From NCBI GenBank assembly GCA_021791415.1, contig JAJYWQ010000011.1:1-57641 (forward strand): 57,641 nucleotides of DNA. Reading direction: 5' to 3'. Each line of letters starts with the position of its first letter. The stretch's first letter is position 1. The notes beneath the pieces are model-generated. The model did not search any database. It was not told the DNA's origin and saw only the letters and a program-made list of their open reading frames with translations. This document shows, one piece after another, positions 48,137-51,683 of the stretch. Origin of the DNA: a bacterium (lineage in GTDB: Bacteria > Chloroflexota > Dormibacteria > Aeolococcales > Bog-877). Made by a program: the position numbers and the translations under genes.

Positions 48137-48751
48137 GTGATCCAGGGGCTGGAACACTTCCTGACCGTCGCCGGTTACCTGGCGCTCTTCCTTCTCACCG
48201 TGGCCCAGTGCTGCGGCTTCCCGGTGTCCAGTGAGGTGGTGCTGCCCTTCGCCGGGGTTCTGGTGTCCACTGGGACCCTGGCGCTGGTGCCCGCCGTGGT
48301 CGTCGCTCTGGCCGCCGAGCTGGTCGGTGGCCTCATCGCCTATGGCGTGGCGGCCTTCGTGGGGCGGGCCGCCCTGTTGGGGTTCGGCCAGCGCTTCAAG
48401 CTGAAGGAGAGCCACTTCGAGGCGGCAGAGCGTTTCTATGAGCGCCGTGGGGTGGCCGCGGTGGCGGTCGGAAGGGTGCTGCCCGTGGTCCGCAGCTACA
48501 CCTCCTTCCCGGCCGGGTTTGCCAGGATGCCGCTGCGCCTGTTCATCCCCGCCACCCTCGCCGGGGCGCTGGTCTGGGATGTTGGTCTGATCGTGGCGGG
48601 GATGGAGCTGGGGAAGCACTTCTCGGTGATCGGCAAGGTCATCAAGCCCCTGGAGTACGCCATTGCCGCGCTGGTGGCCCTGGCCATCCTCTACCTGGTC
48701 TACCGCTACATCAACCGGCCGGCCCAGAGGGCCGCAGATCGGGAGACGTAG
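48137..48751 (+). CDS. DedA family membrane protein
   Basis: The 204-residue protein has the DedA pattern: GFPVSSEVVLPFAG, RFYERRGVAAVAVGRVLPVVRSYTSFPAGFARM and five or six membrane segments. DedA proteins recycle polyprenyl phosphate or phospholipids across the membrane. The GTG at 48137 gives the usual family start; an upstream ATG at 48056 would add 27 residues without homology. The downstream MFS gene begins 16 bases later but seems to have its own control site. Confidence 0.85.
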   Translation: MIQGLEHFLTVAGYLALFLLTVAQCCGFPVSSEVVLPFAGVLVSTGTLALVPAVVVALAAELVGGLIAYGVAAFVGRAALLGFGQRFKLKESHFEAAERFYERRGVAAVAVGRVLPVVRSYTSFPAGFARMPLRLFIPATLAGALVWDVGLIVAGMELGKHFSVIGKVIKPLEYAIAALVALAILYLVYRYINRPAQRAADRET

Positions 48752-48771
48752 TACACTCACCTTAACGTGAG
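48752..48771 (+). promoter_or_regulatory. Operator-like palindrome and -10-like box at the MFS start
   Basis: CTCACCTTAACGTGAG (48756-48771) is a dyad with 14 of 16 symmetrical bases; it covers the GTG start at 48767. TACACT (48752-48757) just before it may be the -10 box, nine bases from the GTG. The overlapping merR gene at the end of the MFS gene is the obvious candidate regulator. Confidence 0.5.
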
Positions 48772-51154
48772 CGTAAACGCCGTGACGGCAGGTGCCGGCC
48801 GTCCCGACCGCTACAAGTGGATCGCCCTCTCCAACACCACCCTCGGGGTGCTGATGGCGATCGTGAACTCCTCGATCGTGCTCATCTCGCTTCCCGCCAT
48901 CTTCCGCGGGATCCACGTGAACCCCCTGGCTCCCGCCAACGTGAGCCTCCTCCTCTGGATGCTCATGGGCTACATGGTGGTGACGGCGGTGCTGGTGGTG
49001 AGCCTGGGCCGGGTGGGGGACATCTTCGGCCGGGTGCGCATGTACAACCTCGGGTTCCTGGTCTTCACCGTGGCCTCGATCGGGCTTTCGGTGGTCTTCT
49101 TTCAGGGCACCTCCGCCGCCCTGACGCTGATCGGCCTCAGGGTGGTCCAGGGTGTTGGTGGCGCTCTGCTGATGGCCAACTCGGCCGCCATCCTGACCGA
49201 CGCCTTCCCCAGCAACCAGCGAGGCATGGCGCTGGGCATCAACGTCGTCGCCGGCATCTCCGGGTCCTTCATCGGGCTGGTGCTGGGCGGCCTCTTGTCC
49301 GGTGTCGACTGGCACCTGGTCTTCCTGGTCTCCGTCCCACTGGGGCTCTTCGGGACGGTCTGGGCCTACCTCAAGCTCCGGGAGATCGGGGTGGTGAAGA
49401 GGGCGAGGATCGACTGGCTGGGCAACGTGACCTTCGCCGTCGGGCTGATCTCCGTCCTGGTGGGGATCACCTACGGCATCCAGCCCTACGGCGGCAGCAG
49501 CATGGGTTGGACCAATCCCGAGGTGCTGGTCGAGATCCTCGGGGGCCTTGTGGTGCTGGGCCTCTTCGTGGTGATCGAACGTCGGACTGAGGAGCCGATG
49601 TTCAACCTCGGCCTCTTCCGGATCCGGGCGTTCACCGCCGGCAACCTCGCCTCCCTCCTGGCGTCCATCGGTAGGGGCGGGCTGATGTTCATGCTGATCA
49701 TCTGGCTGCAGGGGATCTGGCTGCCACTGCATGGCTTCAACTTCGTGCAGACCCCGCTCTGGTCGGCCATCTACATGCTCCCGCTGACCGCCGGCTTCTT
49801 GGTGGCGGGGCCGTTCTCCGGCTATCTGTCGGACAGGTACGGCGCCCGCCCCTTCGCCACCGGTGGAATGCTCGGCGCGGCGTTGAGCTTCGGCCTCCTC
49901 TCGCTCCTTCCCGCCAACTTCTCCTATCCGGTCTTCGGGGTCCTGCTCTTCGTCAACGGGTTCGCCATGGGCATGTTCTCGGCGCCCAACACCGCGGGCA
50001 TCATGAATTCGGTGCCGGCGGAGCAAAGGGGGGCGGCCTCGGGGATGCGCTCCACCTTCCAGAACTCGGGCATGACGCTCTCGATCGGGCTCTTCTTCAC
50101 CCTCATGGTCCTGGGGCTGGCGTCGGCCCTGCCCTCGTCGCTCTACCACGGGCTTCTCCAGCAGGGGGTCCCGCAGGCGGCCGCGAGCCGGATCTCGCAC
50201 CTCCCGCCCGTGGGCAGCCTCTTCGCCGCCTTCCTTGGCTACAACCCCATGGCGAGCCTTTTGGGACCGGTGCTGGGACACCTGCCGGCCTCACGGGTGG
50301 CGGTCCTCACCGGCCGCAGCTTCTTCCCCGATCTCATATCCCGGCCTTTCATGACCGGGATGCGGGTCACCTTCTACTTCTCCGCGGCCATGATGCTGGT
50401 GGCCGCCGCCGCCTCCTGGATGAGGGGCAAGCGCTACGTCCACGACGAGCAGCGGCTGGAGGTGGCGGCGGCGGCCGGCCAGCCGCCGCTGCGTACCCAT
50501 GACCGCTCGGGCCTGGTGCGGACCATCACCGTCTCGGCCAGCTACGGCGCTGGCGGGGACGAGGTCAGCCGCCGGGTGGCAGAGATGCTCGCGCTGCCCT
50601 TCCTGGACCGGGCGATTCCGGTCGAGGTTGCCGAGGAGCTCGCCGCCCCCCTCGACGAGGTTCTTTCCGAGGAGGTCTCGGGCCACAACGGGGTCGGAGA
50701 CGTCTTAGCCGGGCTGGCGCGCGGGGTCGGCCCGGTGGCACCGAGCCCGGCCACGGACGCGGAGGGCGAGGGGGATGCGGAGCGCTTCCGCCGGCAGACC
50801 GAGGCCGTCATCCGCAGGCTGGCCTCCCAGGGCGGGGTGATTCTGGGCCGGGGCGCGGCGATCATCCTCGCGGATCGGGACGATGTGCTGAGGGTCCGGC
50901 TGGACGGGCCAGCCGAGCGCCGGGTCCAACGAGTGGCGGAGCTGACCGGCATCGACCTGGCGACGGCGAGGCGCGACCAGCGGCACACGGATCGGGCCCG
51001 CCAGGTCTACCTGCGCCACTTCTACGACGCCGATCCCGCAGATCCTGGCCTCTACGACGTATGGATCGACACCACCGCCGTGGGACCGGACGCCGCTGCT
51101 CGGATGATCGTGGAGGCGGTCCGCGGGAGGGTGCCCAGTGGCGTCTCCAGCTGA
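48767..51154 (+). CDS. Fusion: DHA2-type MFS transporter + cytidylate-kinase-like domain
   Basis: The 795-residue protein is bipartite. Residues 15-560 form an EmrB/QacA-like 14-segment transporter with LGRVGDIFGRVRMYN and GLRVVQGVGGALLMAN motifs. Residues 585-790 match the cytidylate-kinase-like family: TITVSASYGAGGDEVSRRVAEMLALPFLDRA (glycine-rich loop), LGRGAAIILAD, VRLDGPAERRVQRVAE, DQRHTDRARQVYLRHFY and the closing DVWIDTTAVG. Both parts look intact and in one frame. The pairing is unusual; nucleotide-dependent gating or phosphorylation of the transported compound are guesses. merR overlaps its end by 17 bases. Confidence 0.85.
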   Translation: MSVNAVTAGAGRPDRYKWIALSNTTLGVLMAIVNSSIVLISLPAIFRGIHVNPLAPANVSLLLWMLMGYMVVTAVLVVSLGRVGDIFGRVRMYNLGFLVFTVASIGLSVVFFQGTSAALTLIGLRVVQGVGGALLMANSAAILTDAFPSNQRGMALGINVVAGISGSFIGLVLGGLLSGVDWHLVFLVSVPLGLFGTVWAYLKLREIGVVKRARIDWLGNVTFAVGLISVLVGITYGIQPYGGSSMGWTNPEVLVEILGGLVVLGLFVVIERRTEEPMFNLGLFRIRAFTAGNLASLLASIGRGGLMFMLIIWLQGIWLPLHGFNFVQTPLWSAIYMLPLTAGFLVAGPFSGYLSDRYGARPFATGGMLGAALSFGLLSLLPANFSYPVFGVLLFVNGFAMGMFSAPNTAGIMNSVPAEQRGAASGMRSTFQNSGMTLSIGLFFTLMVLGLASALPSSLYHGLLQQGVPQAAASRISHLPPVGSLFAAFLGYNPMASLLGPVLGHLPASRVAVLTGRSFFPDLISRPFMTGMRVTFYFSAAMMLVAAAASWMRGKRYVHDEQRLEVAAAAGQPPLRTHDRSGLVRTITVSASYGAGGDEVSRRVAEMLALPFLDRAIPVEVAEELAAPLDEVLSEEVSGHNGVGDVLAGLARGVGPVAPSPATDAEGEGDAERFRRQTEAVIRRLASQGGVILGRGAAIILADRDDVLRVRLDGPAERRVQRVAELTGIDLATARRDQRHTDRARQVYLRHFYDADPADPGLYDVWIDTTAVGPDAAARMIVEAVRGRVPSGVSS

Positions 51155-51683
51155 GTCCCCCCCGGGCCCGGAGTTGAGGATAGGGGAGGTGGCCAGCATG
51201 ACCGGTGTCACGACCCGCACTCTCCGCTACTACGAGGAGATCGGGCTCATCACCCCCTGCACCCGGATCAGCGGGGGGCAGGAGCGCCGATACACCGAGA
51301 TGACGGTGGCCCGGGTACGTCGTATCCGAGAACTTCAGGAGGTGCTGGGATCCGGTCTCTCCGAGATCCGCGAGGCGCTACTCGCCGAGGACCGGATGGA
51401 GGCTCTGCGCCAGGCCTACCGGCGCACCACCTCTCGGGTCGGACAAGCCAAGGTGCTCCGTGAGGCCGTCGAGGTGGCCGAGCGCCAACTGGCCCAGATC
51501 CAGCGGCGCCAGGACCAGCTGGGGGCACTCCGCCAGGAGCTTGAGGAGCGACGCTCTAGGCACCTCCAGCGATTGTATGAACTGGGTGGAGACTCCCAGC
51601 CAAGGGGCGGCCAGGGGCCCGCGAACGGCCGGCCCATAGCGGGTGAGGGTCACCCAGGTGGGCCGGAGGGCCGGTCGGGATAG
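51138..51683 (+). CDS. MerR family transcriptional regulator
   Basis: The 181-residue protein has RIGEVASMTGVTTRTLRYYEEIGLITPCTRI, the MerR winged helix-turn-helix, and QERRYTEMTVARVRRIRELQEVLGSGLSEI. A long coiled coil (residues 85-150) and a Gly/Pro-rich tail follow. No metal-binding cysteines are present, so an organic inducer is likelier than a metal. It overlaps the transporter-kinase fusion by 17 bases and probably regulates it through the dyad at 48756-48771. Confidence 0.9.
   Translation: MASPAESPPGPELRIGEVASMTGVTTRTLRYYEEIGLITPCTRISGGQERRYTEMTVARVRRIRELQEVLGSGLSEIREALLAEDRMEALRQAYRRTTSRVGQAKVLREAVEVAERQLAQIQRRQDQLGALRQELEERRSRHLQRLYELGGDSQPRGGQGPANGRPIAGEGHPGGPEGRSG

Follow-up and report, generated by a model that had tools for sequence, protein, structure and literature searches.

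A stretch of 57,641 nt from a Dormibacteria bacterium of the Bog-877 lineage (assembly GCA_021791415.1, contig JAJYWQ010000011.1), hereafter the window, carries a gene in which a major facilitator superfamily (MFS) transporter runs in frame into a kinase-like domain of the PF13189 (Cytidylate_kin2) family. The window is the whole of contig C82 in a 2.16-Mb assembly of 86 contigs. This fusion is real, conserved and built from two known families, and pump and domain are very probably linked in function; for the fusion together with that link, and nothing further, our confidence is high. We propose more tentatively, at a strength somewhat short of probable, that the product is a pump with a tethered kinase-like domain, in which modification of small molecules is coupled to export of those same molecules. 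The computed support is fourfold: the frame is conserved, both domains are under selection, the fold is that of a kinase, and this kinase clade is repeatedly coupled to pumps. Coordinates are collected in Table 1.

Table 1. Parts of the fused gene and adjoining features in the window.
Feature	Position	Strand	Basis
Fused gene (795 aa) joining an MFS transporter, a linker and a PF13189 kinase-like domain	48767..51154	+	
DHA2-like MFS part, aa 1-553	48767..50425	+	MFS_1 match; 14 predicted long helices
Linker, aa 554-583	50426..50515	+	predicted disordered, fast-evolving
Kinase-like domain, aa 584-795 (212 residues), CMP/shikimate-kinase fold	50516..51151	+	PF13189; structural neighbours
P-loop-equivalent TVSASYGAGGDE, aa 588-599	50528..50563	+	aligned with CMP kinase L003 of the genome
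LID-like segment DQRHTDRAR, aa 737-745	50975..51001	+	
dedA/VTT-domain gene, next upstream, separated from the fused gene by 15 nt	48137..48751	+	PF09335, E = 2.4e-18
merR-family regulator gene, 17-base overlap with the fused gene	51138..51683	+	PF13411/PF00376
14/16 dyad spanning the start codon of the fused gene (claimed merR operator)	48756..48771	.	

As the original prediction had claimed, the transporter frame continues into the kinase-like domain. A single frame runs unbroken from its GTG start to its TGA stop, and Pfam places MFS_1 (PF07690) at aa 25-438 (E = 4.2e-37, 128 bits against a cut-off of 33.4) and PF13189, the family that had been named, at aa 587-770 (E = 4.3e-36, 125 bits against a cut-off of 28). 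The best NCBIfam matches of the pump part are the exporters EmrB, SmvA, TcmA, LfrA and QacA, all of them sub-cut-off. None of the 22 listed models reaches its curated cut-off, and the top match (EmrB/DHA2, TIGR00711) scores 162 bits over aa 24-436, below the 230 bits required, so we term the pump DHA2-like only. The full-length AlphaFold model, built from 14 rows (mean predicted local distance difference test, pLDDT, of 60), contains 14 long helices; this even number, taken with a presumed cytosolic N-terminus, most probably puts the kinase-like domain in the cytosol.

The domain keeps a recognizable profile and fold. All 41 of its aligned relatives match PF13189, and the domain model predicted from 41 sequences (pLDDT 76.8, with domain residues 43-84 below 50) lies closest to 3HDT (Z 20.7, root-mean-square deviation 1.8 over 158 residues) and 3FDI (Z 19.3, 2.2 over 157 residues) among the solved structures that Foldseek itself matched. 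Cytidine monophosphate (CMP) kinases (Z 11-15), gluconate and shikimate kinases (11-13) and chloramphenicol phosphotransferase (1qhs, 11.1) follow. The (d)CMP kinase model TIGR02173 is not reached (26 bits for the whole protein and 31.5 for the domain alone, cut-off 102.1). The chloramphenicol phosphotransferase family PF07931 leaves the window domain unmatched at E up to 1 and matches four of the 41 relatives, with a best E of 0.021. A housekeeping CMP kinase is ruled out by the lost Walker A residues and by a separate, intact cmk-like gene in the same genome (L003 1480-2181).

Between the two parts, pLDDT in the full-length model falls below 50 at aa 554-581, and the ratio of nonsynonymous to synonymous substitution rates (dN/dS) of the linker is 0.15-1.1 across ten pairs and 0.16-1.1 across the seven pairs within the genus. 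In 14 aligned rows, the 25 codons before the domain hold no start codon at one conserved place, which makes separate translation of the kinase part unlikely; single rows, the window among them (GTG, aa 584), do have a start codon near the domain.

A PF13189 search of 61 genomes found the fused architecture in 14, counting the window's own, in frames of 781-858 aa. These comprise seven of the eight genomes of the genus, all four of genus g2 and three of the thirty-two of family f2; the fused frame is absent from the other genomes of the family (0/6) and from other families of the class (0/11). The eighth genome of the genus, G001, which lacks it, is a 90% complete assembly. All thirteen fused relatives align along both domains, the one in G002 being cut by a contig end. 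A species-wide scan (84,980 species), which may omit records of the window's own genome, returned 91 relatives of the domain; among the best 80 of these 91, 14 of the 79 loci are fused, namely the contigs of the thirteen relatives and an Acidimicrobiaceae metagenome-assembled genome (L085). Sampling of Acidimicrobiia recovered the domain in 13 of 296 genomes, two of them with fused copies (the L085 genome and G608); gene context was read for six of the thirteen (these two, G668, G471, G632 and G499). Across 400 genomes of the phylum, 156 have a PF13189 match, and no further fused frame occurs among the matches listed. Two other frames of more than 450 aa in the phylum sample proved not to be MFS fusions. 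Of the long frames around kinases, L168, L220 and L266 were set aside: the first is an RND (resistance-nodulation-division) gene before a separate kinase, the second has no second Pfam domain, and the third is a separate MFS gene before the kinase.

Split, overlapping genes in some relatives could suggest that a frameshift or assembly error had joined two genes here. The thirteen fused relatives refute such an artefact; they and two Acidimicrobiia share the architecture, with linkers that vary in length and sequence yet contain no stop, and its probability is negligible. Within the genus (seven pairs), dN/dS is 0.04-0.09 for the transporter and 0.05-0.08 for the kinase part. At this level purifying selection holds for pump and kinase part alike, and the values rule out decay of the latter.

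The functional link is best seen where the two parts are encoded separately. The original prediction had counted relatives split by a stop against it, and such relatives do exist (L134, L150 and L265), but their genes are still coupled to the same kind of transporter, and for that reason we take them to support the link. The transporters of L134 and L150, which share 64-65% identity with the window's, each have the kinase gene directly behind them, stop and start codons overlapping by 4 nt (ATGA and GTGA; a contig end truncates the L150 kinase). Genome G668 of the Acidimicrobiia (L265 5230-8332) has three genes on one strand, in the order MFS (67% identical), merR (48% to the window's MerR) and kinase. 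Elsewhere in that class, G471 carries, on the strand of the kinase, a further type of MFS gene (24% identity to the window's) whose end coincides with the start of the kinase (L266 5196-7480), and a separate MFS gene directly follows the kinase in G632; in G499 there is no MFS gene within 1.5 kb of the kinase. The window's own genome has a second kinase of the clade (45% identical) preceding another MFS gene on contig C63 (L055 1518-11327), and in G003 (L056) the order is kinase-marR-MFS-MFS. Three Chloroflexota genomes carry operons in which the kinase stands between an AcrB-type RND gene and an MFS gene (L132 2532-8346, L197 2-5749 and L199 2114-7886; the pumps of L132 alone among these were run through Pfam). 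The partners of the clade are MFS and sometimes RND pumps, and MerR or MarR regulators. As side observations, marR genes lie upstream of the RND-kinase-MFS operons in L132 and in L118, which is the same contig as L199, and the L055 kinase is oriented divergently to genes for a phosphoribosyltransferase, a carbamoyltransferase and carbamoyl-phosphate synthase, which we read as pyrR-pyrB-carAB.

This coupling exceeds what random placement would give. Among the 43 best-ranked non-fused copies of the phylum, fourteen have an MFS gene within 2.5 kb; when the kinase was placed at random in the same stretches the mean was 8.3, and one trial in 5000 gave 14 or more. At distances of up to 300 nt the count is 9/43 by matched stretches (10/43 by whole open reading frames), against a random mean of 3.7, and this was reached in 15 of 5000 trials. 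Since each stretch was centred on its kinase gene when drawn, the test errs on the conservative side, but the kinase copies are phylogenetically non-independent and contig ends cut several stretches. Separated by type, ten of the thirteen copies in the clade of the fused domains have an MFS gene within 2.5 kb, compared with four of the thirty ordinary PF13189 copies. The link that had been suggested between pump and kinase-like domain is in this way borne out, since the split genes stay coupled to the same transporter kind.

Under the proposal that we favour, the C-terminal tail of a DHA2-like pump would be a tethered kinase-like domain acting on the small molecules that the pump handles. MerR would induce the operon on exposure to a toxic compound. 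In the cytosol, the domain would bind either this compound or a nucleotide-like portion of it. It would then modify the compound, most likely by phosphoryl transfer with its non-canonical P-loop (the weakest step), and the pump would export the product, so that modification and export would be coupled. The arrangement may be likened to chloramphenicol phosphotransferase and its MFS neighbours in Streptomyces venezuelae, but in a single polypeptide. A transporter that phosphorylates its own substrate is possible, with nucleoside-like antibiotics as a conjectural cargo. A wider version, which we rate as rather unlikely, is a pump-kinase module built on a distinct clade of PF13189 whose arginines are relocated and whose P-loop has no lysine. 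This clade would phosphorylate toxic cargo and pass it on to pumps of the MFS or RND type; the partners would be encoded by separate but coupled genes in Chloroflexota and Actinomycetota, and by one polypeptide-coding gene in Dormibacterota and some Acidimicrobiia. If this were true, the fused form would be a self-contained modify-and-export transporter. Should the domain modify cargo, resistance by modification and resistance by export would be joined in one protein. The tie to multidrug-type pumps also provides a functional handle on PF13189.

Several observations weigh against this proposal, and we take them together here, beginning with the phosphate-binding loop. In a profile alignment with the genome's own CMP kinase (L003, G-V-G-K-S-T), K18-S19-T20 stand opposite G597-D598-E599. 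The glycine-rich loop that had been described as intact therefore retains its G-x-G-G, but lysine, serine and threonine are replaced by glycine, aspartate and glutamate. We surveyed 16 fused, 68 other clade and 32 ordinary PF13189 rows, near-copies included, in groups assigned manually on the basis of trees and alignments. None of the 116 has the Walker A lysine (position 597 is Gly in 112 and Ala in four), position 591 is Arg in 32/32 ordinary rows and Ala or Ser in 84/84 clade rows, and the loop is altered further in the f2 copies and one fused copy from Acidimicrobiia. Variants among the fused relatives are GALG in three, GAAG in one and AAGG in one. Loss of Walker-type residues had been named beforehand as a point against the kinase idea; the lysine is indeed missing, throughout the PF13189 rows, but other pocket residues are kept. 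In favour of the proposal, positions 615 and 711 are Arg in 84/84 clade rows, and D614, R615, G694, R695, R711, D713, R719, D742, R745 and D768 are invariant or nearly so in the clade, with Y763 also invariant or missing in one to two rows; R745 and D768 are variable in the ordinary type. The segment DQRHTDRAR is present as reported, but the 16 fused rows retain no more of it than [TV]-D-[RH]-A-R, in which D742, A744 and R745 are invariant. Fused and stand-alone members of the clade alike carry the subfamily signature of an arginine lost at 591 and arginines gained at 615 and 711. From this pattern across fused, clade and ordinary rows we judge that the pocket is largely kept and the phosphate-binding loop unorthodox, and by the same alignments the unorthodox loop is a trait of the family and not decay after fusion.

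A pocket of this kind could also belong to a non-catalytic, ligand-sensing domain, one that would gate the pump on binding nucleotide or cargo, in the manner of the CBS or STAS tail domains of other transporters. The missing Walker A lysine and serine/threonine beside an otherwise kept pocket, the purifying selection on the kinase part and the tethering by a disordered linker all suit a gate, but stand-alone domain genes away from pumps would be odd for a pure gating domain, and the substrate-side residues (GR, D-x-A-R and the final D) are kept. We consider gating a live but doubtful possibility; a purely sensing domain would make the fusion a pump gate of a new kind.

Each part also occurs without the other. 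Stand-alone copies in Actinomadura and Geodermatophilaceae (representatives only) lie among thioredoxin, malic enzyme, AIRS-domain, FakA-like and recG genes, and several in Acidimicrobiaceae adjoin uvrA (two were run through Pfam). With non-fused copies amid such housekeeping genes, the clade must have a job without a pump. Three of the thirteen clade members counted above have no nearby MFS gene. On the pump side, the window's genome has two kinase-less paralogues with 66-69% identity, and tails measure 0-72 aa in 18 kinase-less members of the pump family. The housekeeping neighbourhoods and the kinase-less paralogues are what one would expect from co-expression alone, that is, a general-metabolism enzyme attached to a pump on whose cargo it does not act. 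That the kinase recurs beside MFS genes of different types and in different gene orders argues the other way, and we find co-expression alone quite unlikely.

The pump itself raises a question of direction. The aspartate that is typical of the first transmembrane helix of DHA2 transporters is an asparagine here, and exporter motif C is without its proline. Together with the CMP-kinase fold and the genes beside the second kinase of the same genome (those read as pyrR-pyrB-carAB at L055), the altered motif would suit import and trapping, in which a nucleoside-like or other small molecule is taken up, phosphorylated and kept inside. This is distinctly improbable, as the best NCBIfam matches of the pump are exporters, and partners of the clade include AcrB-type RND pumps and MarR, MerR and HxlR regulators.

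Divergence between genera and the history of the fusion also count against modification coupled to export. The kinase part changes more rapidly than the pump between genera: comparing the window with L079 gives a dN/dS of 0.15 (transporter) and 0.27 (kinase part), and identity between genera is 54-58% in the kinase part versus 83-86% in the pump. In a kinase tree of 36 chosen rows, to which two more Acidimicrobiia had been added, the fused domains (ten rows) form one clade with support 84/86, not starred; in an earlier 87-row tree their monophyly had a weak support of 56. A single clade of all fused MFS parts was rejected in the MFS tree (approximately unbiased test, p-AU = 1.8e-6; 1.3e-4 for f1 and f2 alone), and with L245-L247 added it was not (p = 0.42, or 0.34 with L085). 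These three are kinase-less MFS genes of genus g11 that group with the fused f2 pumps, so the fused MFS parts are not an exclusive clade, and the domain must have been lost there or gained twice. The simplest account is one fusion, later loss in some f2 and a transfer between Dormibacterota and Acidimicrobiia, although the origin may instead lie in separate fusions.

The genes around the fusion are also conserved. A dedA/VTT gene lies 15 nt away in 10/10 fused loci (L073-L082); in the window it may instead start at ATG 48056. A merR gene follows in nine of the ten, the tenth (L077) ending at the contig edge. The window's merR product matches PF13411 at 69 bits (cut-off 21.6, E = 3.4e-19), and its gene overlaps the fused gene by the 17 bases first reported. 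It is 181 aa long, against 153-163 aa in L073, L074, L075 and L078, and a 201-aa frame is found in L076. In two of three f2 loci (L049 7536-11648 and L054 2820-6477), genes for YceI and an Rv2466c-like mycothiol-dependent nitroreductase precede the fused gene, which in L049 also adjoins an HxlR gene; the third, L051, was checked for dedA, merR and pumps only. A marR gene overlaps the fused gene of G608 by 4 nt, and a VTT gene follows that of L085. These neighbours would fit a xenobiotic response.

The proposal that MerR binds the dyad over the start codon fared less well. The dyad exists, but the window holds 61 16-mers with 14/16 symmetry where ten first-order Markov simulations average 53. 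All seven loci of the genus have it unchanged, and in all four of the sister genus its symmetry drops to between 8 and 12 of the 16 positions. With a chance-level count and decay outside the genus, it is no good evidence for an operator, and MerR binding there is unsupported. Across the window and L073-L082, the elements TAGTA..., TT.AC and GTGA.CGT at 48749-48776 look more alike between the two genera than the dyad does, and this stretch could be a promoter or a leaderless start.

Compared with known systems, the pump resembles the 14-helix DHA2 exporters EmrB, QacA and SmvA in its MFS_1 match, its match to the EmrB model, the 14 long helices predicted at a mean pLDDT of 60 and its MerR-type neighbour, and differs from them in its sub-cut-off NCBIfam scores and its C-terminal kinase-like domain. 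The domain shares profile and fold with PF13189 proteins of solved structure (3HDT, a 'putative kinase', and 3FDI, an 'uncharacterized protein'). It departs from ordinary members in that its clade lacks the Arg of SR[EQ] and has invariant R615 and R711, and in that the window's copy is fused to a transporter. In the open-licence papers searched we found no described PF13189 substrate and no description of this kinase-transporter fusion or pair; one source, in the portion drawn on here, lists a cytidylate kinase-like protein as a nitrite reductase neighbour and says no more of it (PMC8756737). CMP kinase (cmk) is alike in fold, with the GR and final D-T aligned, but the window domain lacks the Lys, Ser and Thr of Walker A and the genome has its own intact cmk-like gene. 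Chloramphenicol phosphotransferase, which has a canonical P-loop, is likewise a kinase-fold drug kinase beside an MFS gene (1qhs, Z 11.1 to our model), but there the genes are separate and the enzyme has no close sequence kinship to the window domain. In S. venezuelae, as far as the consulted part of the source describes it, cpt adjoins the MFS gene cmlV (PMC6804068). A further parallel is LplT-Aas, which the consulted part of its source describes as an MFS transporter and a cargo-modifying enzyme in one operon, and a single open reading frame in some bacteria (PMC11416262). It differs from the window's fusion in its lysophospholipid cargo and in having an acyltransferase in place of the kinase-like domain.

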